A stretch of DNA of 43,148 bases from Verrucomicrobiota bacterium (lineage in GTDB: Bacteria; Verrucomicrobiota; Kiritimatiellia; SS1-B-03-39; UBA6053): assembly GCA_020831635.1 (NCBI GenBank), contig JAFIGC010000034.1, forward strand, positions 1 to 43,148, written 5' to 3'. This document shows, piece after piece, positions 14,701 to 43,148 of the stretch. The position numbers and the translations under genes are program-made. The notes under the pieces were generated by a model, which saw nothing but the letters and a program-made list of their open reading frames with translations, had not been told where the DNA came from and ran no database searches. The stretch's first letter is position 1. Each line of letters begins with the position of its first letter.

Positions 14701-15228
14701 GTCACGGCTCAGGTTATTGCCGGTGGCATCTCGATTGCGTCCCAGCCAAACGTCCATCCCCTCCGGACGCTCTTTGCGGATCTCGGTCAAATCGTCCCCC
14801 ACCAGCGCAACCCCATGGGCCGGGGCAATGACCCGCGTCACCTCATCCTCACCTAGCGCATCAAATTGCGCTTGGGACAAAACCAGGACGTTGACCGCAT
14901 TGCTTTGAAAAGGAAGCGCTGCCGTATTGCGCCATTGCTGGGCATCGGCGATGGGGTGCACCTCGGCATTGACGAAGGCTTCGTCGAACTGATCCACTAA
15001 CTGTGGATCCGAACTCAAGGCCACAATCACATGTTTGCCGGCGTCAGCTAAATCAATGGCGGTTTGGGAACCCGAGGGCTCGACCAAAACCACCAAACCC
15101 GCCTCCCCTCCGGCTCGTCCGGTAATGTCACTTGGCTCTACCGCATGTGCTTGGAGACTTAAGCACGTGAGGAGCACGAAGAGGAGGGCGGAGAATCTGC
15201 GGCGGTAGGGGTAATTGATGTCTCTCAT
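2716..15228 (-). CDS. Giant secreted PQQ-propeller/FN3/Ig/PA14/golvesin-like protein (4170 aa)
   Basis: I chose the ATG at 15228 because it has AAAAGGAA 8 nt upstream and opens a clear signal peptide ending in AHA; a GTG at 15255 would only add nine residues. In order: signal peptide; a degenerate Rossmann, methyltransferase-like region (about residues 30-140); a large PQQ-type beta-propeller (about 190-1045); two FN3 domains; module A copy 1 (about 1238-1474); FN3; Ig-like domain (1586-1668); a region of unknown fold (1670-1995); a second Ig-like domain (2005-2090); a malectin-like domain (2096-2246); FN3; module A copy 2 (2353-2591); three FN3; module A copy 3 (2889-3126); two FN3; a second propeller-like region beginning STFLGGSSEEDA (3323-3776); FN3; PA14 (3881-4016); a golvesin C-terminal-like domain (4029-4170). 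The domain set suggests extracellular glycan or surface binding. There is no PEP-CTERM tail. The next gene overlaps by ATGA. Confidence 0.85.
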   Translation of the reverse strand: MRDINYPYRRRFSALLFVLLTCLSLQAHAVEPSDITGRAGGEAGLVVLVEPSGSQTAIDLADAGKHVIVALSSDPQLVDQFDEAFVNAEVHPIADAQQWRNTAALPFQSNAVNVLVLSQAQFDALGEDEVTRVIAPAHGVALVGDDLTEIRKERPEGMDVWLGRNRDATGNNLSRDTVQPPNSIQWLGGARGIPAAYHIISERVHFVSGNNPRFQSRYTTQFGNRPRNPHARDAFSGVTLWNERHTMGEYLVWPFIAFSDGERLFLPQPQAGNTYHDGRDNEPLFMESRNILTGQIIEESLPLIQWNDRLENQEIQMGHWNMNNFFTYRVISDEQRIYHADGGNIVRALSADGTQLLWEKTFPAHEYTDMLAIDQNGEADVLAVVLASTDNNPFASMRLFERHDNIATAVVGLNPATGEQLWRYDGVHDHALKFIIMEFGHLVVSSHLNDPQKAQETANNAGVPSYAQVANNFLASLDPATGQERFRRTGVNDFMDVPMLTGHRANLALSEDYIIFNEAGVAYVFDAMTGERVHENSAGRTSRYTRFSGATKDYIIRNNIFTSYDGTEIDNTTDLVTFEDYGGFNKAANNMWYVTSGFRSSASSRYIGETVALVNEPSFPEFVPYSERLLVAGTAQGSLAEEAGDWPTFRGDFKRRGWRTVDGPEGPLELAWSSEIDLSGPEGAIPYVWTMNSDSPGAITQPVVDGNQILISVPDRHKLVSLNLLDGAERWSTRLSGRVAAPPTLAGDVAFVGVNDGTVSAIDLSDGSIIWTFLAAPYERLHNAHSQMESTHPVRSSPVLYDGTLYVSAGRHTNIDNGIYVWALDPTNGEPINHRVLNDPENNHINDIMQVVDGRLRIAYTDIDPDTLERITPRSPAPAVYPVARGHDGGHGWIGPVQIWMGANFRSGTGMYEASVAGDSRTAVQQEDRFIVFRGASENVYLEFSADDHDVVLREFAFPENRFSRRFMEEYMFGAGRFSYLVARRNNDRIGIAVIDPNEESFTITEIDANANSEEIIPDGIAIAHDHVIVTTTTGRVLAFAQPRIPEAPSDLVVEPGFRTQLELTWQDNAWNEQTYHVERSADGSNWTEIAALPEGSDRYLDEGLESDTTYHYRVAASNITGISEWSAVASGTTIPDPTHPPTAASNLEVSVVSDSEIELNWTVNSDDEDGFLVERSQDGFTWEEVASLDRGTSGYIDGGLISSTQYWYRVVAYSIAGQSAASNSASEFTLSLGQEISSLFVINQGTINEETGQFSRNGGDEFQGVVAHFEPVSLDEVGSFVDLTFEWSGGAGDNTTQGIVWGLYNGSNVNADAQTNITSAWEGYFHAIGVRSGNSRPSQNSGMYRQGAGPQPLINHAIQDGTFHADDVDGAGGRLNSNQHELAYHGQPITGVVRLERISETEIRYTTVYETGRDDRNNTGSAGGISYRVKGADGEATFYSTHNVSAGGPTTVNAVVFGGRGNFNVQNVVVRSTSEDENGGGDPPPVEPPAAPVDLIASTASAEQILVSWEAGDALAEQFVLESRASGGNWEPLATVSADVLDYAHGGLSPSTTYHYRVLARNEGGDSPWSAEASAITADADEPAPPVITAQPQSQSVIEGVTVAFTVTAFGQPSPDYQWYFNDDEIPGETSATLEIPNVGPANEGSYHVLISNHMGYVESESAALLVGPASESLLVRYTFENVPSISDQHSASSLVRQADAEFADPGIVASPFHIRNFEGSNAEGKVIATDSENGIAGAAQIAGEQSALFQWESGGSGNAYYEFTLDGLGSLEVLRIVSRSGQQWTNSGGWNSYSAARRSQISIRTSLDNYGANVGTVFTAGDNGEFNEELVDLTMLSLTDQAVTFRVYTRSLDPSGSWHRTQVDRVEVLGSPEGSPPDLYDLWVEDNNIVGGPTDLTGGVPNLWRYALGGAADTPSNEFNPRPELDGGRFGLRFQRVADPNLTYEVWATDDLMNWGAAPIWTSTGAENVEGETVVEDVELLQNQTLRFMRLIIRLTGIDPVVIDPPEITQQPISQVILIGETAVFSVSATSDASLTYQWYLNDEPISGANSPTLEISNAQSVDEGLYRVVVSNAGGAVAVEAVSLTTTPPLTSPELFARVNFQTDDQPAPEGWLKDSGKVFGDRGNGFSYGWSGNITDTARQRNNNSSPDFLHDTLVHMQKDGEYTWEIEVPNGEYQVRIIAGDPSHDDSVYAINAEETRVVEGTPDANIRWFEGEEIVSVGDGRLIISNASNAQNNKIAFLEIHFLPSEPNPLPPSSPIGLSAQVGQDSQVLLTWDPVDSETETLHVERSLDGETWVLLTSLDGASVETEDHDVSAGATYWYRLIAENEAGQSDSSAAVSVTLPQEIEVLGAFFTINQGSYDAETGQFGRDGNDVFQGVVAHFDPVELSEPGDFVELTFDWNGGASTNTSQGIVWGLFNGDQVNDHAQTEITAGWEGYFHAIGVREGNSRPSQPSGMYRQGSGPQPLINHATQDGTFSAANDIDGAGGRLNSNVHELPYHGRHSITGVIRLERISETEIRYTTFYETERSDRNNTGWEDGISYRVKGENGDVTFYSTHTVADGVPGTVNALVMAGRDTFHLSNVSLSSSGGSAPTPVAPTTPSGFTATGISESEISLAWTDTSSITETFVLSYRPEGGSWSELATLPASDTEYLHEGLSPSSNYEYRILARNQTGDSNWSETILAGTMDPPLAPPSSPSGLSAQIGQDSQVLLIWEPVDPETENLLLDRSTDGGNWIRLAELPGDATGFVDDGTENETLYQYRLAAENPQGMSDWTDPVEVVTPPAPQQTPETPSNLTPTAVTTQRINLTWEEIGDQADQVEIERSQSGTDWSTIAVIDAGIEFHADLMLDIQTSYSYRLRALNAVGASDWTSVVNATTHAHPDPVGSWYAINDGHWNDQDKTFVRNGEDSLQGVVANFPPVEMAQEGDFVEIEFSWNGGASNNTTQGIVWGLFNGEHVTDHAQTHITGGWEGYFHAIGVREGNSRPSQNSGMYRQGSGPQPLVNHATQEGTFSANDVDGAGGRLVSNVHELAYHGKPINGVIRLERVSETQIRYTTFYQTEREDRNHTGSADGISYRVQGEYGNVTFYSTHTVADGGPTTINSLVFAGRGNFTLKDLTLYTSHSFGFETQVPVSPTGLLGDSLTPRSIVLTWQDPADNADGYELQRSEDGANWSTIAALPFGETEFIDVGLEPETTYHYRVANRNARGTSDWSEIVSVTTLTPVVPLPDVPVDLQAESFRVDHALLSWGYSDERADFVQIERRTGDEPWTVAQVLDATETAWEDEGLQPGTSYEYRMFAFNEGGESHYTDTVGITTSVLPKVNEGIVSTSTFLGGSSEEDAVLGSVILSDGTIVLAANLSDAIPDGVPPMLLHGATKDASGAIVRLSSDGRRVLSVTRVSSRVTDLSADANDNLYVAAWEAGILKLNSTATAVIWNHTDPEGRNPWRVDTSDGGTVVALFHGAGLSNPHAHNPGTGRIHVLSPAGEIIGNFAGRHNTLDVAVHEDSETVIFIGWRQANSWQPDGSQQVLPVQISYFRGVDYVGNVKYTGYDWPTDTEHENFLNRSNNNMADTRGIRASIGRDGYLYLAFEAAGGNHIFRYSPFDIMEPVDIVHGDWHHQFFNSNAEHKTFFARYEAETGEYLTGQEFCGRLSSGEGNGVRPLAIEADEEGRVFLSGRAAAGMPLSWNPPGTGAYSGGSWLMIMSPDFTTREFMTRMAPGGTAYTVATRRIDGYQHLVLAGATTTPSLFLKDPIQSEMNAFVDGFYTVFAPDEVPVEPMPGDLPSAPYSLYANVLAYNSVALEWQHNSDQEYGYRLERAPQDGGDWTAVGNVVKGMFSFVDQTAEGSTTYQYRVRALNDFGVSDPSNVVTLTTPPPPREPDTVVVAQSGLHYAYYEGTWSEMPEFNSLIPVEEGVTPQIDLDLRLRDQQYAFVFEGFVEVDEEGVYTFTTRSKGTIRLWIGDALVVEHDGLDPNEEVSGDILLFPGYHAFRVEYFTNDPDGFQEVLFSFEGGEGEIIPGSRFLHESSVPVMVMADNSDEDVVEVIGTWTTSTFTGGGQFIGEDYLHDGDSNKGQRSVIYQAGLVEGLYEVQIIYSAFSNRASNVPVTIHHAEGSETVTVNQQSGGGIWHTLGTYSFESGFTGHVVISNAGTNGFVIADAIRFVPVTP
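5850..6560 (-). repeat. Module A, copy 3 (intragenic ~235-residue repeat)
   Basis: This is the third copy of a module that contains WEGYFHAIGVREGNSRPSQ, GMYRQGSGPQPL, DGAGGRL and GISYRVQG. It is flanked by FN3 domains on both sides. I do not recognise the domain family. Confidence 0.85.
7455..8170 (-). repeat. Module A, copy 2 (intragenic ~235-residue repeat)
   Basis: This second copy shares the same landmarks as the other two (WEGYFHAIGVR, GNSRPSQ, GMYRQGSG, DGAGGRL, GISYRVKG), and long stretches are also alike at the DNA level. The FN3 domain on each side (near 7030-7135 and 8345-8455) is a recent duplicate as well, both carrying QDSQVLL, so the duplicated unit is larger than the module alone. 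Confidence 0.85.
10805..11515 (-). repeat. Module A, copy 1 (intragenic ~235-residue repeat)
   Basis: This first copy begins near FVINQGTINEETGQF and ends near NFNVQNVVVRST. It keeps the shared core of tryptophan, glycine and asparagine landmarks. It is predicted to be beta-rich and of a size typical of a carbohydrate-binding or LamG-like domain. Confidence 0.85.
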
Positions 15229-15623
15229 GGTAGAATTCCTTTTGGGATGTTGCACTGAAATAACGTTTTTTCTTCAATCTTCTTGATTCTTCCACAGGTC
15301 ACCATCTTTTGTCTACATATTTATCTATGTTATTTTGCGACAGCACTTGTGTCAAAATGCGTATTACTCATATAACTGTATGTACATAATAGTCTTTATA
15401 GGTTTACGTATATACACTTCATAGGTTGTTCATAGTGAGCTTTATATGGCATAATAACGACACACGTTCCGTATGGGGAAATCTCGAAGTGAAGTTTTTG
15501 TTCTGAAAATATACCTGGATGCTTTTCCTAATTTACGCCCATTATTTTCTTGATTGGGCAGACCCTGTGGTCCATCTTCCGAGAATTCAAACGACTCAAT
15601 CGAAAACCGACCGCCCATACATC
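15229..15623. other. AT-rich divergent intergenic region, no gene seen
   Basis: About 395 nt separate the giant secreted gene (minus) from the small membrane protein (plus). The stretch 15300-15480 is markedly AT-rich with many TAT/ATA steps and must hold the promoter of the giant gene. I see no convincing operator, repeat or RNA structure. An extended reading of the small protein back to 15519 is possible but not favoured. Confidence 0.5.
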
Positions 15624-18879: not shown

Positions 18880-20817
18880 TCACATTCCCTCTTCAGGCGG
18901 GAAATATTCCCGCAAGCTCCAGAAAAACAAGGGCTGCGGGGAAGATATTTCGAGGGCGTTCGGGCCGGGGAGACATTCGAAGGGTTCGCCGATGTCCTGC
19001 ATGTCTCCGGTCAGCGAGTCGGTGCCCTGGAGGATGTACTGTTGATAAAATTCACCGGTGAACGTCAGTTCGAATGAGCTGGTCCCGGTGTTCCGCAGGC
19101 TGCGGAAATGAGAGAGTTCCATATCCTCCTCGTAAGTCCTCAGCTTTACATCGGCACGGGGGGGGACACCCGAATCCGCAACCAAGACCGGGCGCGCGTT
19201 TTCCCAGTATTTCGAATCGAAGGTTCTCCAGGCCAAACCAGGGGTCTGCGGTGAAAAAAACAAGAGGTATTCTCCCGGCGGCAAACCGCCCAGCACATAA
19301 TTTCCATCGGAATCAGAGAGGGTTTCACTTATGAATTCGTCAGTCTCAAATCCATAGGCCACAACATAAACCTCCTCAACTCCCTCCCCATTGTCCTTTC
19401 GGGTTACGGTTCCGATAACCGTGCGACCGAGTTGCAAGCTCATGTCAAATCCCGCGTTCACACTTTCCGCGTCAATCTCGACGGTGTCATTTCCCGGGCT
19501 ACTTTCGTAGCGGGCACGGACATGAATGAAATTCGGGTCGCTGAAGCGAAGTTGATAGGCCCCACCCGCCAAACCGCCCAACGCATAGCTTCCGTCTGCA
19601 AGAGTGTACGTGCTGATGGCGTAGTTTTCGTTTAAAACCTCATCAAAATATGGAATCGCCTCAACCTGGATTCCCTCCAAGGGATCCCCCGTGTCCACGT
19701 CAGTCACGCTTCCCTGTATGAGGGCGGCGGAGGAAAGCTCCATCCCGAAATTTTGCAAGTGAAAGCCGGTTGAAAGAATGACTCCGGTTTGGGTGCGGCT
19801 CATGGCATAAATCGCGCCCAAACCATCTATAAAGACAAGCCGGTACTCTCTGGGGGGAAGTCCTCCGATCACATAATATCCGTTTTCATCCGTGAGTCCC
19901 GAGGCTTGAATAATCCATGAACCGTAACCAGAATCAAAATATTCCAAAAAAACAGAGATATTGGCAATGGGGAGTTCCGAACCCGCCGCCGTGACGATAC
20001 CCGATATTTTCGCACCTTGAATCATGGTAATATTGTGAGGGCCGCTGACATTCCCGGATGTGAGCCAGATCCCCTGCGATAACTCGAAAAGATGAACATC
20101 CCCATGAAAGGTTGTCAAAAATTCAGTGTGGTTTTGATAAACCAAAACCCCGATATGGTGCGCCCCCTCCGTAAGACCGCCCACGTAATACGTTCCGTCC
20201 TCAATCGTCGAGGCGCTTCCCACCCAGTCGAAGTCCCCCCATTCAAGATTGGGTTTGAAGACATCGATTGGCAGTCCCGCAGCCGGAGTGACGCCATCGG
20301 GCTCATAAACGGTTCCAAAGAGGACCCCACCCGTGTCCTGCGTGAGACTGAACCCGAAATTATCCGCGGTTCCATCGGTATAAACCGCGATGCGATAGGT
20401 TTCATTCGCCTCCGCCAGAAAATACAAATTGTGATCGGAAAACCAAAAGTTGTAAACCGAAGCATTGACTTTCTGAAGATTTTCCGGATCGTTTCCCTTC
20501 CAGACGGCGACCTGCAGATTCCCGGCTCCTATCGCGTATACCGACCCCCACACCCGGGTGGTTTCAGTTACCGACAGGCTGTACCAGGCGGATCCAGAAA
20601 CCGCATCCTGATATCCGATGGTATCCAGGGTCTCGTTCTCTTCAAGAAACGCCCCCGCCAAAGTCCCCACATCCCAGTAGGGCAGTTCCGTAACCGGAAT
20701 GGCATTTGCGAATGAAAAGTTTTCGGGAACGTCGGCATGGATGTGCGTGCTTTGCAGTTGAAAGACAACCGCAAAAATTGCATGAACAAATCTAAAACGT
20801 TTCAGCTTGGTTTTCAT
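18880..20817 (-). CDS. Secreted protein with carboxypeptidase-regulatory-like repeats
   Basis: The ATG at 20817 has GGAA about 8 nt upstream and starts a signal peptide (about residues 1-29, ending HIHA). The 645-residue protein then has a pre-peptidase-like beta domain (about 35-150) and five or so CarboxypepD_reg/SdrD_B-like beta-sandwich repeats. These are recognisable by the pattern I-x-G-x-V ... G-x-Y-x-(I/L)-GGL-x-x-G-x-Y, for instance ENGYYVIGGLPPREYRL and DGNYVLGGLPPGEYLL. The tail (LTFTGEFYQQYILQGTDSL) resembles the C-terminal module of many Verrucomicrobia secreted proteins. No PEP-CTERM tail or catalytic residues are seen. It lies 86 nt downstream of a PEP-CTERM gene without a clear terminator between them, so the two are probably co-transcribed. 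Confidence 0.8.
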   Translation of the reverse strand: MKTKLKRFRFVHAIFAVVFQLQSTHIHADVPENFSFANAIPVTELPYWDVGTLAGAFLEENETLDTIGYQDAVSGSAWYSLSVTETTRVWGSVYAIGAGNLQVAVWKGNDPENLQKVNASVYNFWFSDHNLYFLAEANETYRIAVYTDGTADNFGFSLTQDTGGVLFGTVYEPDGVTPAAGLPIDVFKPNLEWGDFDWVGSASTIEDGTYYVGGLTEGAHHIGVLVYQNHTEFLTTFHGDVHLFELSQGIWLTSGNVSGPHNITMIQGAKISGIVTAAGSELPIANISVFLEYFDSGYGSWIIQASGLTDENGYYVIGGLPPREYRLVFIDGLGAIYAMSRTQTGVILSTGFHLQNFGMELSSAALIQGSVTDVDTGDPLEGIQVEAIPYFDEVLNENYAISTYTLADGSYALGGLAGGAYQLRFSDPNFIHVRARYESSPGNDTVEIDAESVNAGFDMSLQLGRTVIGTVTRKDNGEGVEEVYVVAYGFETDEFISETLSDSDGNYVLGGLPPGEYLLFFSPQTPGLAWRTFDSKYWENARPVLVADSGVPPRADVKLRTYEEDMELSHFRSLRNTGTSSFELTFTGEFYQQYILQGTDSLTGDMQDIGEPFECLPGPNALEISSPQPLFFWSLREYFPPEEGM

Positions 20818-20903
20818 GATCAATTCCAGGTTTTGTGCGTCAGGGATTCAAGACTATGATATGGCAAGGACACCCTATTGGGCTCCGGGGATGCTGCACC
20901 CCT

Positions 20904-22943
20904 TCAATTCGCGTTTTTTCGGGGATGTTTGCTGCGGCGGCCAAGAAGCAGAGCGCTTCCCAGCAAGATCATGGTTAAAAGGATGGTCGACGGTTCAGGG
21001 ATCACCACAAGTTGGAGACTTCCATTCTGGAAGTAGGCGAAACGATCATCGCCTATGGATTGTCTGTTTCCAAATCCGAAATTGGAGATGTTGTTGAAAC
21101 CGCTTAGCGTAGAGATCAGGGTGTAAACCCCGTCATCGATCATATTCCAGTCAATCAGGGTACCATCCGCATTTACCAGGTTTGAAATACCAAATGTGTC
21201 ATGCATCGCGACGGATTTTCCATCCAGAACAGTCAACGTCGTCATTGGATTAAAGACAAAGTTGGCGCCGGGTGAAAAAGTCATATCGCTGCTAATGGTT
21301 CCCATCCCGCCGAAGGCGGCACCAGAAGCAATGTGAAAGGCTCCTCCACCGGTGTGGGCACCGTTCAAAAATAGAGTGCCTTCGTTAACAAAGGTTTCGC
21401 CAGTATAGATGTTGTTTCCGGACAGGACGAGTACTTCCGCGCCAAGCTTAACCACTGAGCCATCACCAGTAATCGACCCGGATAAGTTTATATAATCAGA
21501 GCGGTGAAAATGTACTTGTGTGCCTGGTGAAGTGGTTATATCACCATGCACCCAACCCGTTGAAGTATTGTCCCCGATTTTCAAGGTCCCTTCGTTCACA
21601 AACGTGCCAGCGGTGTGGGTGCTGTTGCCTGTAAGTGTCAAAAGACCAGCTCCATACTTAACCAAACTTCCTTCACCAGAGATGTCACCAGCGAATGTCA
21701 GGTTGTTAGAACGATGGAACTGAAGCCCCGTGTTGGCGGATAAACTCACATCGCCCGAAAGAAAACCGTTTGTGGAATTGTTGCCAATTCTCAAGGTTCC
21801 TGCAGAAACAACTGTTCCTCCAGTATGTGAAATATTCCCGGTGAGGGTTAATGTGTTTTCTGATAATTTCTCAAATATACCCTGACCAGATATATTCCTT
21901 GTAAAAATTACGTCATCAGATCGGTTAAATTGGAGCCGTGCACCGTTATCAATTCGAATATTACCGGCAACGGTTCCAGTTGTAGTGTTGTTACCCAATC
22001 GAAGTGTACCTCCAGTAACAATTGTTTGGCCAGTTATAGAATTGTTTTGTAATAATGTCAGCATGTTTGATCCATTTTTGATAAAATTGCCCGAGCCAGA
22101 CACCACATAATTATAAGTGATATCATCAGATCTTCGAAACGCGAATACTCCATTTCCGCTAACGAAAACATCGGAGCTAATTTCACCATTTGTTCCATTA
22201 TCACCTACTGTAAGTGATCCATTTTCAACTCTAGCTTGCTGCGCAAAGGTGTTATTTCCTGTCAGGGTTACTGCGCTTGCCCAGCCATCAACTATAAGGT
22301 ATCCATTTCCCGAAATTATCCCACCATACGTGACGGTTCCCGCATCAAAGGAGACCCTGCCTGAATTCAACAAACTAATGTTTCCTGTAACCGATCCTCC
22401 AACATATAAAGCCCCAATTGACAACCTGCCAGAATTAACAGTTGTTCCGCCTGTGTAGGTATTGTTTGCCCATAAATAAACTGTTCCAGAGCCCCTTACT
22501 TCTATACCGCCACTTCCTGAAATCACTCCTCTCAATCTGATTCCTGAGTTACTGCCTGAAGGATCGACACTTAGAGTTCCTGATGGGATTTCGATAGGAT
22601 TCCATATTGACCAATGTTCCCCCGTAATAGAAGAAATGGCTTTCAATGTTTGATTAAATGTAATTTTTTCTCCGGTTATGGAGACACTTCCTGATCCATA
22701 TTTTTCAATAGACGCGATTGTGATAGGATTCGTTACGGTCACATTTGCTGATACTGAACTAAATTGTGCACGCTGGTTTCCGCTAGCAAAAGGGCTGAAA
22801 CTGTACAAATTCCAATTTTGCCGATTATTCCAGTTGTTATCTGTACTGCCGGTCCAACTTCTAATAGTTTGAGCATGGACAGAAAGCATCCCCAGCCCGA
22901 GGAGGGTGGAGAGGATGAGGGTTTTTATTTGGTTTGGATTCAT
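20904..22943 (-). CDS. PEP-CTERM autotransporter-type beta-strand repeat protein
   Basis: The 679-residue product begins with a signal peptide ending SVHAQ. It carries about eight beta-helix rungs of the autotransporter-associated type (GNNTYTGGTTVNSGRL, LTLTGNISHTGGTVVSAGTL, LTLTGNSTHTAGTFVNEGTL) and ends with VIPEPST, a hydrophobic helix and an unusually long basic tail (GRRSKHPRKNAN). By family knowledge this tail is cut and sorted by an exosortase; none is encoded here. I chose the ATG at 22943 because the signal peptide begins there, although an in-frame ATG at 22979 is possible and neither has a clear ribosome binding site. A 48-bp element shared with the LuxR-type gene starts 70 bp upstream. 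Confidence 0.85.
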   Translation of the reverse strand: MNPNQIKTLILSTLLGLGMLSVHAQTIRSWTGSTDNNWNNRQNWNLYSFSPFASGNQRAQFSSVSANVTVTNPITIASIEKYGSGSVSITGEKITFNQTLKAISSITGEHWSIWNPIEIPSGTLSVDPSGSNSGIRLRGVISGSGGIEVRGSGTVYLWANNTYTGGTTVNSGRLSIGALYVGGSVTGNISLLNSGRVSFDAGTVTYGGIISGNGYLIVDGWASAVTLTGNNTFAQQARVENGSLTVGDNGTNGEISSDVFVSGNGVFAFRRSDDITYNYVVSGSGNFIKNGSNMLTLLQNNSITGQTIVTGGTLRLGNNTTTGTVAGNIRIDNGARLQFNRSDDVIFTRNISGQGIFEKLSENTLTLTGNISHTGGTVVSAGTLRIGNNSTNGFLSGDVSLSANTGLQFHRSNNLTFAGDISGEGSLVKYGAGLLTLTGNSTHTAGTFVNEGTLKIGDNTSTGWVHGDITTSPGTQVHFHRSDYINLSGSITGDGSVVKLGAEVLVLSGNNIYTGETFVNEGTLFLNGAHTGGGAFHIASGAAFGGMGTISSDMTFSPGANFVFNPMTTLTVLDGKSVAMHDTFGISNLVNADGTLIDWNMIDDGVYTLISTLSGFNNISNFGFGNRQSIGDDRFAYFQNGSLQLVVIPEPSTILLTMILLGSALLLGRRSKHPRKNAN

Positions 22944-23012
22944 AGCGGCGGATGGGTTGGAAAGGTTTATATCAAACATGAACCCCCATAGGATGAACCT
23001 TTCAGGAGATTC

Positions 23013-23060
23013 CGCCAAGATGTTTGAAAAAGAAAAAGCCGGGTACGAAGTACGGACATT
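23013..23060 (-). promoter_or_regulatory. Shared 48-bp upstream element, copy 1
   Basis: This 48-nt block matches the block at 29899-29946 at 39 of 48 positions with no gap. Conserved parts are CGCCAAGATGTT at one end and two GTAC words three nucleotides apart, followed by GGACATT, at the other; an A-rich stretch lies between. It sits 70 bp upstream of the PEP-CTERM start at 22943, nearly the same distance as the other copy has to the LuxR-type gene. It is likely an operator or promoter of a common regulator. Confidence 0.7.
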
Positions 23061-23092
23061 CAGCCCATGATATCCGGCAAACCCTCACCCCC

Positions 23093-23971
23093 TCAATGGG
23101 GAGGAAGTCGACGACTGCGCTGGAGGACTTTGCTGACGGCGGCGGGAGTCATCTGGAGCAGTTGCCCGAGGGTTTCGGTGTTCAATCCCTCGCGGGCGGC
23201 GCGGCAGATGACGAGGTCGCGCCCCGGATGTCCGTGAAGGTCCCGGAAATCGTCCCAGGACAGCCCCTGTTCTGCTTCGGCCTCCAGGATGAGGCGGTGG
23301 AGCACGTCCTCGGGGAGCACCAGGGAAACTGCAGTCGGGCACGTGGAGAGCGGGCCCGGCAGGGAGCCAATCCCCTCGTGGATCCCTTCCCGCAAAACTT
23401 GCAGAAGCAGGGAACGGTAGTCCGTTCGCTGGGGTTGTGGCTGAATCCAATCCCGGCAATGGGCGGGGTTGAGCCAATCCGCGACGCTGCTCCACCCATG
23501 GGCAATCATTCCGCTGATGGCCATCTCCGGGTTGGAGGCGGTTCCGGATGGAAGCCAGGGCAAAGCGGGTCCGTGAAAGCCCTGCGCGGTTCGATGCGGA
23601 TGGAGGTGAAGGTAATGTGAGGCCCTTAGCAAGGTGTCGTCATCCTCCGCCAGGGCCTTGGCATCATAGTTCCCGGCGAACAAATGTCCCCGGAAATTGT
23701 GGCGGGCGCGGTGCCGATGGCCGTAACAGAGGTTCATCCAGTGCATGAATCGCGGCAAAACGCCTTTTTCAACATGCAAGACCACATGGAAATGGTCAGG
23801 AAGCAGTACATACCCCGAAATCCGCACCGCGTGCAACCCTGTCCCCTCCGACAGGCAGGAGACCATGTGCGAAAAATCCTCCGCGTCCCGGAACAGGTGA
23901 AGTCCCGGGTTGGAGCGATTGGTGATGAACCACCATCCCGCATTCTGGAAGTCTGATCGTGAAACTGCCAT
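23093..23971 (-). CDS. RAYT: REP-associated Y1 (IS200-like) transposase with HTH tail
   Basis: The 292-residue protein has the Y1 transposase fold with the HUH-type motif HFH at residues 60-62 (LLPDHFHVVLH) and the catalytic tyrosine probably Y120 (ASHYLHLHPHR). A C-terminal region (about 215-292) resembles the DnaA-like helix-turn-helix found in many such single-copy transposases. These enzymes bind and process hairpin REP sequences and are usually not mobile themselves. I chose the ATG at 23971 with AGG 5-6 nt upstream; a longer reading to 24100 adds residues with no family match. It sits between PEP-CTERM genes on the same strand. REP-like hairpins occur further right in the window, though none clearly flanks this gene. 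Confidence 0.85.
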   Translation of the reverse strand: MAVSRSDFQNAGWWFITNRSNPGLHLFRDAEDFSHMVSCLSEGTGLHAVRISGYVLLPDHFHVVLHVEKGVLPRFMHWMNLCYGHRHRARHNFRGHLFAGNYDAKALAEDDDTLLRASHYLHLHPHRTAQGFHGPALPWLPSGTASNPEMAISGMIAHGWSSVADWLNPAHCRDWIQPQPQRTDYRSLLLQVLREGIHEGIGSLPGPLSTCPTAVSLVLPEDVLHRLILEAEAEQGLSWDDFRDLHGHPGRDLVICRAAREGLNTETLGQLLQMTPAAVSKVLQRSRRLPPH

Positions 23972-24053
23972 AAAACCTGCTGCACGAATTGTGCGGAAAA
24001 TGCAAAAAAATGTCAATGGGGAAATGTCTTGTGAAAAAAAACGAAACTTCTTC

Positions 24054-25190
24054 TTACGTTTTTTTGCGGACGCCCCAAAAAACCAAACACAAGATCCCAC
24101 TGATCGCCATGAGTGAGAAAGCGCTCAATTCAGGAATCACCACATATAAAGCCACCCCTTCTTGAAGGCTCGGATGCAAAGTCGACGGTTGATACGTGAC
24201 ATGAAACATGGCGTGGCCAAAGGTCGCAACCACATCCCCTTCCGCCAAACCAAAGAATGCGCCCGTGAGAACGCCGGAAGTTTCCAAAATCTGAAAAACA
24301 TCCCCCTCATTCGGAGTATAGCCATTGATCAAACTCAAGGAAAGGCCACCGTCCAGATTGACGTTGCCGAGAACGCGCAACACATCGAATTCCCCCATGC
24401 CCGTTCCCCCCAGCTCCATTTCCAGGATGCCGGTGGCCATTTGGGTGAAATTTCCGTCGATGGTGAGCAGTCCGGGGGAATTTCCCGGGGCGACCACGCC
24501 ATGATTGATCACATTTGCCTGAACCAGCCCCCCGCCACCCGTCAAGGTCCCGGTTTGCCAAAGGGTGATCGCCCCAGAAGCAAGCACGATCTCCCCCCCG
24601 TCACGCACCTCCAGGATGCCGTTCCCTCTGGACTGGGAGTTGTGCCCCCCGACACGGACGGCGTTGGAACTGCTCCACTTTGATCCGTATCCAGAGACCG
24701 TCGCATGTCCCGTGCCCGTCAGCGTTTCCCCCAAATATGCAATTCCGGCTGTCACCAGCTCTGCGCCGTCAAGAATTTCCACCGTTCCCTGCCCGATACG
24801 TCCTACTGAAAAATGCCCTGTACTTGTGCTCGTGGAGAAAAACGTAGATCCTACACCCTCCACCCGCACGAGTGCTTGAGAATGTGAGCCATTGCCAATA
24901 TATGTGATGCCGTTTGACATCAAAGTACCAGCGGTATCAACTGAGATCTCGATATTTCCATTTAAACTGAAACTCCCGGCCGACATTTGGGACTCAGATC
25001 CTTCTATCAGAATTCTGTTTGGGCTACCACTTTCAGACGATGATATTGAAATAGAAGCCGACAGGTCCAAACTTCCTCCCGAGTGTATATGAACAAGACT
25101 ATCACCAGAACTCAAATTGAGTTGGCCGGCCTGAAAAGCCCCCTCTAACTGCAGGGTTGATTGGGATACAGTTAAATTCTGTTGAATCAA
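24054..25190 (-). CDS. C-terminal part of a PEP-CTERM-like protein, out of frame with its N-terminal half
   Basis: This frame carries the continuation of the beta-helix protein encoded upstream. It has repeats of the type VRVEGVGSTF and GHATVSGYGSKWSS, a typical GVVAPGNSPGLLTIDGNF late-repeat motif, and a C-terminal sorting-like tail (VIPELS, hydrophobic helix, VRKKT). It has no signal peptide or credible start: the first codon available is a TTG in mid-domain. It joins the upstream gene across a run of nine G at 25192-25200 (minus strand). Removing one G gives a continuous 1028-residue protein. Note that the sorting motif reads PEL, not PEP. Confidence 0.8.
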   Translation of the reverse strand: MIQQNLTVSQSTLQLEGAFQAGQLNLSSGDSLVHIHSGGSLDLSASISISSSESGSPNRILIEGSESQMSAGSFSLNGNIEISVDTAGTLMSNGITYIGNGSHSQALVRVEGVGSTFFSTSTSTGHFSVGRIGQGTVEILDGAELVTAGIAYLGETLTGTGHATVSGYGSKWSSSNAVRVGGHNSQSRGNGILEVRDGGEIVLASGAITLWQTGTLTGGGGLVQANVINHGVVAPGNSPGLLTIDGNFTQMATGILEMELGGTGMGEFDVLRVLGNVNLDGGLSLSLINGYTPNEGDVFQILETSGVLTGAFFGLAEGDVVATFGHAMFHVTYQPSTLHPSLQEGVALYVVIPELSAFSLMAISGILCLVFWGVRKKT

Positions 25191-27141
25191 GCCCCCCCCC
25201 TTGAATCACCATAGAACCTGGACCTGCCACCCTCAGTCTACGCAAGGGCTGGGTGGTCGATAATCCGTTGATAAACAATGCCGAGGCGGAATCATCCACG
25301 AAGACATATAATCCTTCATTCTCGCTCAGGCTTGCCACTTTTCCTGTGACAGCTAAGCTGGCACCGGATGCGATTCCAAGCATTGCCTGCGTGCCAAATG
25401 ATTGGTGATTCAATAATAAATCACCAGAGAGGGTAACATCAGAATTTTGCAGTACGGCAAGAGAAGCGTTTCCCAATCCAGGGGAAATTGCTTCAGTAAG
25501 TTCGTTGACCACAATGGATTTCGTTAGTGATATGCTTCCGTCGAAAGCAACAGCACCATCTCTGTGCAAATAAACTAAACCACCATCAGCTCCGAGTGCA
25601 TTTGCATTGTTGATGGTAGTGTAGATGCCAAGGTATGTGTCTCCAGTATACGCATTGATCCCGCTCAATTTCAGCTGAAACGAATTGCCAGAGGTATATA
25701 AACCCAAGCCTACGGCTTCCAAACCGGCGGTACCAGTGATCACGGAGGAAATTTCTTTCAACCCTCGGGCGCTCACCCCTGAATTAGAGGACAGGGCAAT
25801 TACCCCGGTTGTGTTGCCAAAGGCAAGGGTGCCACCGTGAATGTTCGCATGTTCATTCATCAACACCACCCCGCTCTGCAGGGAAAGGGTGTTGCCCGGG
25901 CCGATGTTCAAATTAGTCCCAGCCACACTGTTGTTGTCGTTGATAAACAGGGAATTTGCGGACGCGTTGGCGGACAGTGAAGCAGATGCGGTCATCCGCA
26001 CATTATCATCCAGCGTCCCCTGGAAATCACTCCGGTATTCGGTGGCGGTGTTCAGGTGCCGCACGCCGCCCTGGGAGTCATAGGTGGTCAGGCCATAGCT
26101 TAACGCGTGCGCATAGAAAATATGGGGGGAAATGGAAAGCTGCGTGGAATCGGCGGCGCCCCCGCCACCCAGCAAGCTGGGCGAGGCACCAAAAAATAGG
26201 CGAGTTGCGCCGGGACCCGTTTCACCCAGATTCGGGCCGCCCAGCAACAAAAACGCGCCCGCTTCCCGTTGCAGGGCCTGTTGGGTAACTAGCTCCACCT
26301 GGGTGGAGGCGTTTGGACGGGACAATGTCAAAATGGATGTCCCAGCTTCCAAGGAGAGCAGGCTGATCACTTCACGGGTGGTGGTGTTATGATTACTTCC
26401 ATGCAATGTAAACCTTCCTGATCGCAAGAACAGTTCGGCATCGTCATGGATGCGATCTGGATTTTCGGACAAAGAGGTTCCGTCACCCGCCTGTAAATGC
26501 CCACGATGAGAAATCTGTATACGTTGCGTTTCAAGAAAACCACCACTATCCCCTAGCAGATTGAACGAACCCCAACGAGCGATTTGCACGTCACCCGAAA
26601 AAAGATTTGAAGCATAAAAATTGGCGTGATCTGAGCTGGTGGTGGTTTGAATTCCGCCAGTACCAAAAATATTCCCGTAAAAATGCTTTTGTCCACCCAG
26701 ATCAATGCGTAAATCCTGTCCATTGGTCTGAATGTTCCCAAGAAAGGTCATGGCTTGACCAGGCCCAACTTGTACCCGATCCCAATTGCTTGGATTCAAG
26801 GCTAGGTCTACATTGAAAACATGCGCTCCAGTAGGAGCTCTTGCGTTAACACTCCGTATTGTGAGTGTTGATGCGTTGATACCATCAAAAGTATGTGCGG
26901 CTGCGGTGTTGTTAAACTGAACATTTGCCACCAACCAGTCCGCATCCAGGGTGATGGTCTGTGGCGTCAATGAAGCGATTGTGATTGTGGCGGTGCCATT
27001 GTTCGTGGGCATGACCCCGGTCGACCAATTGTCCGGGTTGGACCAGAGGGTGTCCGATCCATTTCCGGTCCATGTTTGTGCATGGCTCTGGACGGTGACC
27101 GCCCCAAGCAAAACACACAAGCCTCTGATGAAGTACCGCAT
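25102..27141 (-). CDS. N-terminal part of PEP-CTERM-like beta-helix protein, frameshifted at a G9 tract
   Basis: The ATG at 27141 has an excellent AGGAGG a few nucleotides upstream and a signal peptide ending SHAQ. The protein is a passenger of the autotransporter type (WTGNGSDTLWSNPDNWSTG start; later NAYTGDTYLGIYTTINNANALG). After residue ~649 (SMVIQGGG) the frame runs through nine G and then into 29 residues of nonsense before a stop at 25102. The product as written is 679 residues and lacks a sorting tail, so it would be released rather than anchored. It is 30 nt downstream of the preceding PEP-CTERM gene and so is likely in the same operon. Confidence 0.82.
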   Translation of the reverse strand: MRYFIRGLCVLLGAVTVQSHAQTWTGNGSDTLWSNPDNWSTGVMPTNNGTATITIASLTPQTITLDADWLVANVQFNNTAAAHTFDGINASTLTIRSVNARAPTGAHVFNVDLALNPSNWDRVQVGPGQAMTFLGNIQTNGQDLRIDLGGQKHFYGNIFGTGGIQTTTSSDHANFYASNLFSGDVQIARWGSFNLLGDSGGFLETQRIQISHRGHLQAGDGTSLSENPDRIHDDAELFLRSGRFTLHGSNHNTTTREVISLLSLEAGTSILTLSRPNASTQVELVTQQALQREAGAFLLLGGPNLGETGPGATRLFFGASPSLLGGGGAADSTQLSISPHIFYAHALSYGLTTYDSQGGVRHLNTATEYRSDFQGTLDDNVRMTASASLSANASANSLFINDNNSVAGTNLNIGPGNTLSLQSGVVLMNEHANIHGGTLAFGNTTGVIALSSNSGVSARGLKEISSVITGTAGLEAVGLGLYTSGNSFQLKLSGINAYTGDTYLGIYTTINNANALGADGGLVYLHRDGAVAFDGSISLTKSIVVNELTEAISPGLGNASLAVLQNSDVTLSGDLLLNHQSFGTQAMLGIASGASLAVTGKVASLSENEGLYVFVDDSASALFINGLSTTQPLRRLRVAGPGSMVIQGGGLDSTEFNCIPINPAVRGGFSGRPTQFEFW
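25192..25200 (-). repeat. G9 homopolymer (C9 on plus strand), candidate phase-variation tract
   Basis: Nine consecutive C on the plus strand lie exactly where the reading frame of the beta-helix protein breaks. With eight G (or eleven) the two halves fuse into one frame that ends in the sorting tail; with nine they do not. A sequencing error in the run cannot be excluded. Confidence 0.85.
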
Positions 27142-27171
27142 GCCCCCTCCTGATAACGTGAAATTAAAGAA

Positions 27172-29082
27172 CTAAATCCGCTTGCCCGCCTTTTTGCAGC
27201 GGCGATTATGGGTCAGTCCCAAGGCGGCGAAGGTAATGGCCATAAGGATGATTGCGGCGGGTTCTGGGATGGCGGAATAGGTGAGATAGATGTCATTCTC
27301 ATCAACCAACCATGCGAAACCGGCATTAGCCCTTACGCTCTGCAAAGACACGCCCAAACTATCAGGGCTAAGCATATTGGAAGAGAAGATGGAGTTTAAG
27401 ATGAGATTCGGCTCGTTGAGATTCTCGAACACCAGCCAGATCTGGTCATTGTCCCAAAATGAATCCCCCCAATTCACGGATGAATTGAGATCATCTGTTT
27501 CCGAATTAAACACCAAACTCGCGGTAACTCCACTATCGATAAACAAGGTTCCATCTATAACATTTACACCATCATAAGTGATTCCCCTGTCTGACAAATC
27601 ATTTCCGTTCGAGAACAACTCCCATTCAAAAACGGCGCCAGTATTGTAAGATAGTCCATCGCTAAAAGATTGGAGCCCGGGGCTGTTACCTGGACTGTGG
27701 GTGCCTCCATCTTGAATCGTAGTGTTGGACGCAATGGTACCACTACCGCCAAGAATGCCTGGACCAGAGACGATGAGTCCGCCTGTTCCAGCAGAACCAT
27801 TTACAACCAACACGCCTTCTAGAATGGTCGTAGTGCCCGTGTACGTATTGTTGCCCCCGAGAATTTGGGTGCCAACCCCCTTTTTGACAACATTAATGTC
27901 GCCGGTTATGACACCAGAATTTTGTGGGGTTCCATCTCCAAACACAAAAACTTCGTTACTGTAAGTATCAATGGTGAGCACAGAACCATTAGACCCCGTA
28001 ATTTGATTGAATTCCGAGTACGGACTTTCGACTGAAATGAGACCACCAACAGTTTGGTTGCCTGGCAAAGACAGGTGACCAGATGAATAACTTTGACCAA
28101 ATGAGATATAACCGAATGGATTCAAAACATCATTTCCCGCCAAATTGACACTTCCTGACTGTATCCACAGGTTCTGAACATAACTATTGTTTGTTTGGGT
28201 AAGTTGAAGAAGTCCCTCTCCTTGTTTGATGAGCGACCCCCCGCCAACATTTCCAGTGAGAACGTAGTTGGAATCCATTTCAACCCGAATAGCAACGTCA
28301 GAAATGCCCCCACCAAGATTTATGTCATTGTGTATTGTTTGAAAAGAGCTGGAAGTAGTGCCGCCCGACAGTATTAAACCCGGCGTTTGATCTTGATTCA
28401 TCTCACCAAGGTTTATCACGGCACTACCCAAATTCCATTCATGTCCCGAAGGTCCAATGAATTGTAGTTGAGCCCCGGTCTCAACAGTGATAGAAGATGT
28501 CGACGAGATTTCCGAACCACTGGTAACGCGCAAGCGGCCTTCACTTACAACAGTCGCTCCTGTATAGGTGTGATTGTCGACCCCTGAGAGGGTTAAGGTG
28601 CCTTGACCCGCTTTAGTCAGGCCGCCGGAACCGCTAATTGGGCCGGAAATCTCCAAAGCGCCGGAACTTGATGTGGTTTCCACATTATTGACGGTTACCA
28701 CGACGTGACTTTGCAAAGATACGGGCGTGAGAATTTTATTCGTCGTGTCCCCATCGCCTGAGACGGTAATTGTACTCGCGAGGATGCCGGAGTCTAAGAT
28801 CAAATCGCCACCGGAACCGCTGTTCACCGAAAAATCAAACCCGGTGTTGTTCGTAATGCTTATGGAGCCAAGGGTTATATTTTGATTTAAGGAAACAGAG
28901 AGGTCATCCGAAGGGGATGTGAAAACCGCCCCTGCTCCAACGCCATTGGGAACGGTTGAAGGCGACCAATTCGACGAAGTGCTCCAATCCATATTAGAAC
29001 CTGAGCTTGGAACCCAAGTACTCTGGGCGTTCGCAATAAACGTGAAGTTCATGCAAGTGAAAATGAAAATATTCTTAATCAT
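27172..29082 (-). CDS. PEP-CTERM autotransporter-type beta-strand repeat protein
   Basis: I chose the ATG at 29082, which starts a signal peptide ending IANAQ; a longer frame to 29133 adds a non-signal leader. The 636-residue protein has a WSTSSNWSPSTVPNG opening like other PEP-CTERM passengers, rungs such as GLTKAGQGTLTLSGVDNHTY and LGGNNTYTGTTTILEGVLVV, and the GTHSPGNSPG motif before the last domain. It ends with AIPEPAAI, a hydrophobic helix and NRRCKKAGKRI. By family knowledge the tail is an exosortase signal. It is 115 nt downstream of the LuxR-type regulator and 30 nt upstream of the next beta-helix gene, with no clear terminator on either side, so a regulator-led operon is likely. Confidence 0.85.
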   Translation of the reverse strand: MIKNIFIFTCMNFTFIANAQSTWVPSSGSNMDWSTSSNWSPSTVPNGVGAGAVFTSPSDDLSVSLNQNITLGSISITNNTGFDFSVNSGSGGDLILDSGILASTITVSGDGDTTNKILTPVSLQSHVVVTVNNVETTSSSGALEISGPISGSGGLTKAGQGTLTLSGVDNHTYTGATVVSEGRLRVTSGSEISSTSSITVETGAQLQFIGPSGHEWNLGSAVINLGEMNQDQTPGLILSGGTTSSSFQTIHNDINLGGGISDVAIRVEMDSNYVLTGNVGGGSLIKQGEGLLQLTQTNNSYVQNLWIQSGSVNLAGNDVLNPFGYISFGQSYSSGHLSLPGNQTVGGLISVESPYSEFNQITGSNGSVLTIDTYSNEVFVFGDGTPQNSGVITGDINVVKKGVGTQILGGNNTYTGTTTILEGVLVVNGSAGTGGLIVSGPGILGGSGTIASNTTIQDGGTHSPGNSPGLQSFSDGLSYNTGAVFEWELFSNGNDLSDRGITYDGVNVIDGTLFIDSGVTASLVFNSETDDLNSSVNWGDSFWDNDQIWLVFENLNEPNLILNSIFSSNMLSPDSLGVSLQSVRANAGFAWLVDENDIYLTYSAIPEPAAIILMAITFAALGLTHNRRCKKAGKRI

Positions 29083-29197
29083 GATGATTTTTTCCGGGAT
29101 TTTCAGGTTTATGTTTTCTTTTGAATTTACCACAAATGATTTTGCAGGTTTTCATGTTAGTGTCAACTGACGGCGCTGCCGCTTATTTACGGCAAAC

Positions 29198-29830
29198 TCA
29201 ATTGGAGAAATGCGGACTTTTCCCGGAATTGCCGGAAAGGAAGGCGGCGGGAACCCGGCACAACTCGGCAAAGCTCGCAACCTGCAATTTTTCCATCGCC
29301 CTTTTTTTGTAGCTTTGAACGGTACTGATCCCCACCTGTAATTCGTCCGCCACCTGCTTGAAACTTTCTCCGTCACAAAGGCGGCGCACGACCTCCCTTT
29401 CCCGCACTGTCAGCTTTGCGCATTTCGCCTCCAGACTGTCCTGTCTCCAATTCGCGCACACCATATCCAACAGGATCCCGGCTTCGGCGTGCTCCGGGAC
29501 CGTCAGTACCGTCCAGGAACCAGGCAGGTTCCCGATGGGATCATTCCCAATGCATACCAAGCGGCAGGTTCCGACAAAATCGATTTTCCGGAAAGCCGCG
29601 TCCTCCAATGACGCGTGGACCCAATCCCTCGAACTGATCACCACCGTGGTTCCTGAAACATTGTTGTGTATCTGATTCCAGTTTTCCATGCCCACCACTT
29701 CAATCGTATGTAGCCTGGCGCGGATCAACGCAATCATCCCCTCTCTCCATAGCGCACGGGGTTCCACTACCAAAAGTCCGCGGTGCTGCCCGCGGACATC
29801 GGGATGGTGTGCGGGATGGGTGCGGTTCAT
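29198..29830 (-). CDS. LuxR-type transcription regulator with degenerate receiver domain
   Basis: The 210-residue protein has a clear C-terminal LuxR/GerE helix-turn-helix (about residues 142-200: KLTVREREVVRRLCDGESFK, then STVQSYKKRAMEKLQV). The N-terminal part resembles a response-regulator receiver in outline (LLVVEPRALWREGMIALIRA, then TIEVVG), but the acidic pocket is reduced to E-P and the usual phospho-acceptor aspartate region reads VVISSRDW. It is therefore probably not controlled by standard phosphotransfer; this is an inference. It heads a minus-strand series of PEP-CTERM genes. A 48-bp element shared with a PEP-CTERM gene starts 69 bp upstream, which suggests autoregulation. Confidence 0.85.
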   Translation of the reverse strand: MNRTHPAHHPDVRGQHRGLLVVEPRALWREGMIALIRARLHTIEVVGMENWNQIHNNVSGTTVVISSRDWVHASLEDAAFRKIDFVGTCRLVCIGNDPIGNLPGSWTVLTVPEHAEAGILLDMVCANWRQDSLEAKCAKLTVREREVVRRLCDGESFKQVADELQVGISTVQSYKKRAMEKLQVASFAELCRVPAAFLSGNSGKSPHFSN

Positions 29831-29898
29831 GTGATTCTTGGATGAGTATGGATTATGTCAGACTCGAATCTTCATAGTTTAAAACTTTGGCAAGAACG

Positions 29899-29946
29899 CG
29901 CCAAGATGTTAAGAAAATAAAAAGATGGGTACTTGGTACGGACATT
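29899..29946 (-). promoter_or_regulatory. Shared 48-bp upstream element, copy 2
   Basis: This copy matches 23013-23060 at 39 of 48 positions. The two GTAC words are again three nucleotides apart, although the three spacer bases differ, as expected for a protein-contacted repeat. Read toward the LuxR-type gene, the element ends in TTGGCG. A TAAACT box follows 17 nt later and could be a -35/-10 pair; that reading is tentative and does not hold equally well for copy 1. Confidence 0.7.
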
Positions 29947-30114
29947 TCACGACACTTTGTCGATCTTCAACCATTTTCCGTGCGGCCCTCCGAGATGCCC
30001 GTGATGTTTGGGCCCGAGTCTCGGGGTGCGGTTTGAAAACCGTTCACCTGTTGCTATGAAAGCATACTTGATTTTGGCGTGGCCATTTCTTTTAGAATAT
30101 GCCACGGAAATTGG

Positions 30115-37490: not shown

Positions 37491-38408
37491 TTACTTCCGG
37501 CGGCGGAAGATCGCCAGAGTACCCATGGCGATGACCAACAACATCAAGGTCCCTGGCTCGGGGATGGGCGCGACCGACTCAAAACTGAAGCCCAGACGGG
37601 CTTCATCGAAAATAAACGAAGGGTCCTGCACACTGTTGCCCGTTTCTCCCCGCAGGATAAGGGCGTTGAGGTTGTGTCCCCCAAAATGATCGGCGGCAAA
37701 AGTGTAGTCGGCGGTGCCGGGGTTGGTCAGGCTCGCGGGATTGGCCCACACCTGAACGGTTCGATTGCCTTGCCCTCCATCGTGAAATCGGGCAATGACC
37801 AGGTGCGTGGTATCGGCGGCAAAGACATCAGTGCTTGTGCCAAAGGTATTGCCTGTACCCGCAACGAGGTTGCCGGATGCGTTAAAGCCGAAAAAATGTT
37901 CCCGGGGTCCTCCGGTTTGGCTGCTACCGACCTGCCAGCGCATGGAGCCTGCGGTGCCCGGAGAAAACTGAAGCAGACCGCTCATATAAAAGGTGTCTCC
38001 GAGCCCGCCTGTAGTGGGGATCGCATTACGTCTTACTCCCTTGGTTTGGCCGCCGGAGGCGCTGCCGGAGCGGAAAATCTCCAAGGCGCCCGCGGTGGTG
38101 ATCAAAGACTCGGTCCCTGTCTGGTTGGTCCAAGTGAGGCCGGTGCTGTTGACGCGGGGGTAGACGCTCGCCGCCACACTATCTTGGTTGACCCAAGCAT
38201 TTTCCGTACTGAAGCCGAGCCGATCCGGGGCCTGACCGTGGAGGGCGTCATTGTTTGTTCCATTCGTGGATGCGGGTTCGGATTGGTATTCATTTGCGGC
38301 GGGAAATTCGCCCCCGGCGAGAAAACCATCGTAGGCCAACAAGCTGGCGGAAGCTTGGGCGGCGACCATGAGGACGGCGAGGGATGGAATAAAGGGCTTT
38401 AATTTCAT
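37491..38408 (-). CDS. PEP-CTERM protein, LamG/concanavalin-like
   Basis: The ATG at 38408 starts a signal peptide ending ASAS (about residues 1-21). The mature part (LLAYDGFLAGGEFP opening, beta-rich, with a late ALILRGETGN and a FIFDEARLGFSF strand) resembles the LamG-like PEP-CTERM proteins common in Verrucomicrobia. The C-terminus is IPEPGT, a hydrophobic helix and AIFRRRK. It shares that tail almost exactly with the genes at 39200 and 41860. A 44-bp element shared with the other PEP-CTERM/AraC intergenic region lies 89 bp upstream. 305 residues. Confidence 0.87.
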   Translation of the reverse strand: MKLKPFIPSLAVLMVAAQASASLLAYDGFLAGGEFPAANEYQSEPASTNGTNNDALHGQAPDRLGFSTENAWVNQDSVAASVYPRVNSTGLTWTNQTGTESLITTAGALEIFRSGSASGGQTKGVRRNAIPTTGGLGDTFYMSGLLQFSPGTAGSMRWQVGSSQTGGPREHFFGFNASGNLVAGTGNTFGTSTDVFAADTTHLVIARFHDGGQGNRTVQVWANPASLTNPGTADYTFAADHFGGHNLNALILRGETGNSVQDPSFIFDEARLGFSFESVAPIPEPGTLMLLVIAMGTLAIFRRRK

Positions 38409-39199: not shown

Positions 39200-40078
39200 T
39201 TACTTCCGGCGGCGGAAAATCGCCAGGGTACCCAAAGCGATGCCCAAAAGCACCAGGGTGCCGGGTTCGGGGATGGCGACGATGTCACTGAGGGACTGGC
39301 TTATTACGATTTCATCTGTCGTGACCGATCCACCTTCACTCAAGGTATTTGAGAATCTCAAAGTATTAAATGGCAATGGATTGCTTCCCCCATCAAAAAA
39401 GCGGAGGATACCCCAGCCACTTCCATCCGCCGTGCCCAAATTGGCGAGTGTGGGATTGGGGTCGGCAGTAATCTCGGGGTTCACCCATATATCGTAACGT
39501 TCAAAAAATGCACTGTTCGGATTGCCTTCGCTCTGCTGATAGGCCCTTAAAACAATCAGATGCGTTTCGTCAGCCGCAAGATTGGAATTGAACACAGTGG
39601 CAGATCCTCCATTTGGCGTGAAGGAAAAGGCCCCTGTACTGTGATTGATGCTAAAAACAGATGGACGATTTTTCTCATTCGTAAAGGTCAGCGTGCTGTC
39701 AGCGGTAGCCCCTCCAGAATAACTCACCAAAAATGAGAGAAAATAATCATCGGTATTGTCCATCACGTAATTCAGCCCTCTGGTGAGGGTTTTCGCATGT
39801 GACCCACCAGAAGCGCGAAAATGCTCCAGAGATCCGTTGCTCGTGGGGGCATAATTCTCGTAGCTCAACCCGCTGGACCGTGGGACATAATCAACCACGC
39901 CTGCTGCCATGCCGCCTGTCTGAGACCAATTCCCGGTGAAACCTGTTTTGGCAGGACCTTGGCCTACAATGGTTGTATCTACCGTATAGCCTGAAAACCC
40001 TTCATACACCAACAAGTCCGCATGGGCCTGATGCACGAAGAGGGCGGCGATGAAGAAGGGTAAGGTCTGTATTTTCAT
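39200..40078 (-). CDS. PEP-CTERM protein, LamG/concanavalin-like
   Basis: The ATG at 40078 has AGGAG 7-8 nt upstream and starts a signal peptide ending QAHA. The 292-residue protein has a LLVYEGFSGY opening, a beta-rich LamG-like body (LSYENYAPTSNGS, YDIWVNPEIT) and the tail IPEPGT ... AIFRRRK. It is a paralogue of the gene at 37491. The divergent AraC-type gene starts 175 bp away, and a 44-bp shared element lies between. A strong terminator follows the stop. Confidence 0.88.
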   Translation of the reverse strand: MKIQTLPFFIAALFVHQAHADLLVYEGFSGYTVDTTIVGQGPAKTGFTGNWSQTGGMAAGVVDYVPRSSGLSYENYAPTSNGSLEHFRASGGSHAKTLTRGLNYVMDNTDDYFLSFLVSYSGGATADSTLTFTNEKNRPSVFSINHSTGAFSFTPNGGSATVFNSNLAADETHLIVLRAYQQSEGNPNSAFFERYDIWVNPEITADPNPTLANLGTADGSGWGILRFFDGGSNPLPFNTLRFSNTLSEGGSVTTDEIVISQSLSDIVAIPEPGTLVLLGIALGTLAIFRRRK

Positions 40079-43128: not shown

Positions 43129-43148
43129 GCGCATCCCTTCCTTCACGT

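Follow-up and report, generated by a model that had tools for sequence, protein, structure and literature searches.

The window analysed here, a stretch of 43,148 nucleotides from a genome of the Verrucomicrobiota, includes a cluster of repeat-protein genes (positions 20001-30000) with a G+C content of 49-51%, whereas most of the flanking sequence has about 55-60%. One of these genes, encoded on the minus strand, is split by a run of nine guanines (25192-25200; C9 on the plus strand of the window, G9 on the coding strand). As read, the upstream half (25102-27141, minus strand) comprises a ribosome site, a signal peptide, 650 residues of the secreted, beta-strand type and then 29 out-of-frame residues. 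The Shine-Dalgarno region, in which AGGAGG can be read directly (27145-27152, minus strand; CAGGAGGGGGCATG), precedes the ATG at 27141, and the N-terminus of the product is a plain signal peptide (MRYFIRGLCVLLGAVTVQSHAQ). The 378 codons of the downstream half (24054-25190, minus strand) encode two T5SS/PEP-CTERM-associated repeats, a C-terminal region common to relatives and a hydrophobic tail. On either side of the split gene and on the same strand lie intact genes for PATR beta-strand-repeat proteins with IPEP tails, one upstream (27172-29133) and one downstream (20904-23018). Directly downstream of the split gene, the region 23093-24100 produced a weak match to a REP-associated tyrosine transposase (33.5 bits against a cut-off of 80). 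Elsewhere, the window contains three further PEP-CTERM genes (37491-38408, 39200-40078 and 41860-43146) and an open frame of 4179 residues (2716-15255) encoding a giant secreted protein with six Fn3 stretches, an Ig domain, a PQQ-like propeller, PA14 and a C-terminal Golvesin domain.

The G9 run codes for Gly-Gly-Gly, and its length sets the reading frame. With nine Gs (codons GGG GGG GGG CTT), the frame that opens at 27141 yields 679 residues and stops at 25102, whereas with eight (GGG GGG GGC TTG) frame arithmetic gives a protein of 1028 residues ending at 24054. By the same arithmetic, eleven Gs would give 1029 residues with an unchanged end at 24054, and seven or ten a stop after 2-3 codons. 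From the tract onward, 378 codons of the downstream frame are open, and the nearest stop before them lies 8 bases upstream of the tract, which places the junction exactly at the tract, 63% along the gene. The run, the frame break located precisely on it and the fact that both sides are coding are directly observed, and the coincidence of run and break is real. One of the properties by which slipped-strand phase-variable genes are recognized is a short repeat that determines the reading frame through its length while both frames remain open, and the split gene has it. A preliminary description of this locus had noted the ribosome site and signal peptide of the upstream half, the lack of a ribosome site on the downstream half, the end of the nine-G frame 29 residues past the tract at 25102, and the division of a surface-protein gene by the G9 run, all of which agree with our results: there is one gene, with both halves open and the break on the tract. 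It also placed a further 1028 residues after the tract with eight Gs; there is indeed one frame to 24054, but 1028 is the length of the entire protein.

The two halves most likely represent one gene with a frameshift, because the downstream half lacks its own ribosome site, contains TIGR04393 repeats and has C-terminal homologues in relatives. TIGR04393 matches the downstream half in two stretches (45 bits against a cut-off of 23; two places were also recovered in the genome scan), which assigns it to the T5SS/PEP-CTERM-associated repeat proteins, and homologues of its C-terminal region are encoded by genus and family mates at roughly 30-47% identity. Codon-position G+C is similar in the upstream (0.53/0.48/0.53) and downstream (0.54/0.47/0.56) halves. 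Besides the two repeats, the split gene shares with this protein family the W..N..W N-terminal motif and the long beta-strand-repeat architecture; it differs in that the frame is broken between the N-terminal part and the repeats and in that the tail reads P-E-L. Apart from the single base, the 378 open codons of the downstream frame show no decay, which suggests a recent insertion or one that still reverts.

The upstream half produced no matches in Pfam or NCBIfam and resembles other secreted repeat proteins remotely, mostly in the N-terminal part. A comparison of the tract among orthologues came to nothing because a close homologue of this half is absent from three genus mates, the family, a 388-genome sample of the phylum and a species-wide contig scan. 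Nor did the genus, the family or the 388-genome sample yield a homologue spanning the tract and the frame break. The exact flank of the tract is absent from viral contigs.

The genome contains two exosortases (PF09721 matches of 184.6 and 153.6 bits), 106 PEP-CTERM matches and, next to the split gene, the two IPEP-tailed neighbours, the tails of which pass TIGR02595 (that of the upstream one, searched by itself, scores 18.9 bits). The split gene itself ends in VIPELSAFSLMAISGILCLVFWGVRKKT; its sorting-type tail (24054-24152, minus strand; ALYVVIPELSAFSLMAISGILCLVFWGVRKKT) resembles those of PEP-CTERM proteins in its hydrophobic stretch and basic end, but P-E-L replaces P-E-P, so that the near-invariant second proline is missing. 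Unlike the tails of the neighbours, it falls below TIGR02595 when searched alone, and neither TIGR02595 nor PF07589 matches the downstream half-protein. If a PEP-CTERM protein is taken as one with a C-terminal match to either model together with P-E-P, the product of the split gene falls outside the class. Among about 30 PEP-type tails compared in the fetched sequence, this is the sole one without P-E-P, and, given also the failure to match both models, exosortase sorting of the full-length form is doubtful. The label "PEP-CTERM-like" given to the gene originally is thus apt only in a loose sense, the tail reaching neither model, and the proposed anchored, exosortase-sorted "on" form is not supported. 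The corresponding contrast between a released and an anchored product is doubtful as well, since a two-membrane cell would more likely keep the tail-less form in the periplasm or degrade it. The leucine codon of P-E-L, TTG, is at least two substitutions away from every proline codon. The change to P-E-L is probably older than the frameshift, because a frame without a stop in 378 codons leaves little time for neutral decay.

The frequency of such runs was assessed in loci chosen around tracts, 0.93 Mb in all, and by pattern counts over the whole genome. The 6.0-Mb genome contains 126 G/C runs of at least nine bases, 45 of them of exactly nine, compared with about 156 exact nines expected under a scaled first-order Markov (dinucleotide) model. 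In the 0.91 Mb fetched, runs of 5, 6, 7 and 8 bases were observed 1913, 389, 91 and 26 times, against first-order Markov expectations of 2406, 758, 239 and 75, respectively, and the G9 counts carry on the smooth fall seen from lengths 5 to 8. A genome-wide excess of tracts is ruled out, nines being rarer than the dinucleotide expectation. Within the split gene, 38 of the 141 glycines are coded by GGG. When the order of its codons was shuffled, a G run of at least eight arose in 23% of the trials and one of at least nine in 8%; shuffling of synonymous codons, which leaves the protein unchanged, produced such runs in 31 and 15%, respectively. The run is best explained as a side effect of encoding glycines by GGG GGG GGC; it is not longer than composition explains, and the listed tracts show no concentration in surface genes. 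Many of the longer runs in the assembly sit at contig ends, most of them with G20 to G50 pointing outward. Contigs C6, C12, C21, C25, C135, C161, C253 and others end in 16 to 50 bases of poly-G, which is mostly G when read outward. This terminal poly-G has the appearance of an artefact of short-read sequencing that was retained in the assembly.

If tracts flipped freely, about two thirds of them would be expected out of frame. About twenty other interior tracts of at least nine bases (9-13) inside long open frames keep the reading frame. A dozen tracts of at least nine, flagged as possible splits by open-frame length, were each read by eye; besides the split gene, one appears to be a true break, and the rest are in frame (among them those in an SDR-type gene and a methylenetetrahydrofolate-reductase-like gene, both named by eye), at gene ends or in non-coding frames. 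The apparent break is a C15 run in contig C116 (L093:9802-9816), the two sides of which read by eye as one von Willebrand A-type membrane protein; Pfam named neither half. Among the listed tracts, a single PEP-CTERM coding sequence out of the 106 PEP-CTERM matches contains one, namely a gene of contig C230 with an in-frame G9 (C230:43544-43552, corresponding to L121:15544-15552) some 25-30 codons ahead of the P-E-P of its IPEP tail. A single slip would take off this tail; in the paralogues and relatives of the gene, the position of the G9 is occupied by a variable linker that lacks such a run. The listing leaves out 26 of the 126 tracts; the exact nines among these were recovered separately, and none lies inside a listed PEP-CTERM gene, whereas the longer ones were not placed. 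A concentration of tracts in PEP-CTERM genes was rejected, the one listed case being in frame and its run absent from paralogues.

We consider it probable that the split gene reflects a recent one-base insertion in the glycine codons of a lineage-specific gene for a secreted protein of the T5SS/PEP-CTERM-repeat type, rather than a switch. Under this scenario, one base would have been inserted into a run of about eight Gs in the gene for a glycine-rich, lineage-specific secreted beta-strand-repeat protein; the assembled genome would hold the disrupted allele, with a predicted product of 679 residues truncated after residue 650 of 1028 and deprived of the C-terminal repeats and tail; and the event would be recent or still reversible. 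Eight would then be the ancestral tract length, the change a mutation and not an error, and the tract presumably not selected as a switch. Plain mutation, standing phase variation and assembly error would all fit the locus itself, but the genome-level evidence favours the first. In support of plain mutation are the rarity of G9 relative to the dinucleotide prediction, the expectation of the run from glycine codons, the in-frame state of the other in-gene tracts and the off-consensus tail. What argues against it are the 378 open codons, with codon-position G+C like that of the upstream half and no decay past one base; moreover, slippage switches typically target surface proteins, and nine Gs fall among the tract lengths at which slippage is known elsewhere.

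An alternative is slipped-strand phase variation, with the G9 run as a contingency tract through which the population would switch between a 1028-residue surface protein and the truncated 679-residue form. Both halves are fully open, the break falls exactly on a slippable run, the product is a repeat-type surface protein, and a paper of 2011 had put forward mononucleotide slippage for Akkermansia muciniphila (PMC3048395). Nevertheless, we regard such switching as unlikely because tracts are in excess neither genome-wide nor in PEP-CTERM genes, other in-gene tracts are kept in frame, glycine codons predict the run, no homologue with a kept tract was found in the genus, the family or the phylum sample, and the tract lies so far into the gene that the off state still yields most of the protein. 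The on/off switch initially proposed is supported in part: one gene with a slippable G9 and open halves fits a recent or reversible event, but selection of the tract as a switch is not supported, given the lack of tract excess and the intact frames at other tracts. That the tract toggles a long surface protein between the full form and a form without the C-terminal sorting region seems quite unlikely. An error of sequencing, amplification or assembly, with a true tract of eight Gs and an intact gene, is improbable too: the assembly is broken into 308 contigs, with stretches of G20 to G50 at contig ends, and the C15 run in C116 likewise appears to break a gene, but the terminal poly-G suggests short-read data, which usually give the correct length for an internal run of nine bases, and the in-gene tracts of 9-13 that remain in frame do not favour this explanation either. 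Recoding, whereby RNA polymerase slippage or +1 ribosomal frameshifting at the G9 run would yield both forms simultaneously from one gene, needs just one +1 step at a homopolymer; it is highly improbable, given that transcriptional slippage in bacteria is known mostly at A/T runs and that a conserved frame break is absent from every relative found.

Compared with the slipped-strand mononucleotide phase variation of surface genes in Neisseria, Campylobacter and Helicobacter, the split gene is alike in having a G9 run in a surface-protein gene, the length of which sets the frame, and differs in that it is known from one allele, that tracts are not in excess and that the tract is located late in the gene. 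In A. muciniphila, PEP-CTERM genes are enriched near invertons of group 138 (PMC11892184), which also ties phase variation to PEP-CTERM proteins, but through DNA inversion; the intergenic stretches near the split gene contain no striking inverted-repeat pair, and an inverton acting there was rejected. Given this enrichment and the slippage proposal for the same species, the concept of phase variation in the PEP-CTERM class is not new (PMC3048395; PMC11892184), and what is left of the novelty originally claimed is that slippage acting on such a protein would be a new route. None of the papers searched brought together PEP-CTERM, exosortase and frameshift. To our knowledge, there is no earlier case of slippage, as opposed to inversion, acting on the PEP-CTERM/exosortase class.

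As it stands, the locus represents a surface-protein gene of a known kind in a frameshifted copy, and it serves as a caution that codon use gives rise to G runs in glycine-rich repeat proteins. If the length of the tract varied between cells, slippage would diversify surface proteins of the exosortase class, which would be new for this lineage.
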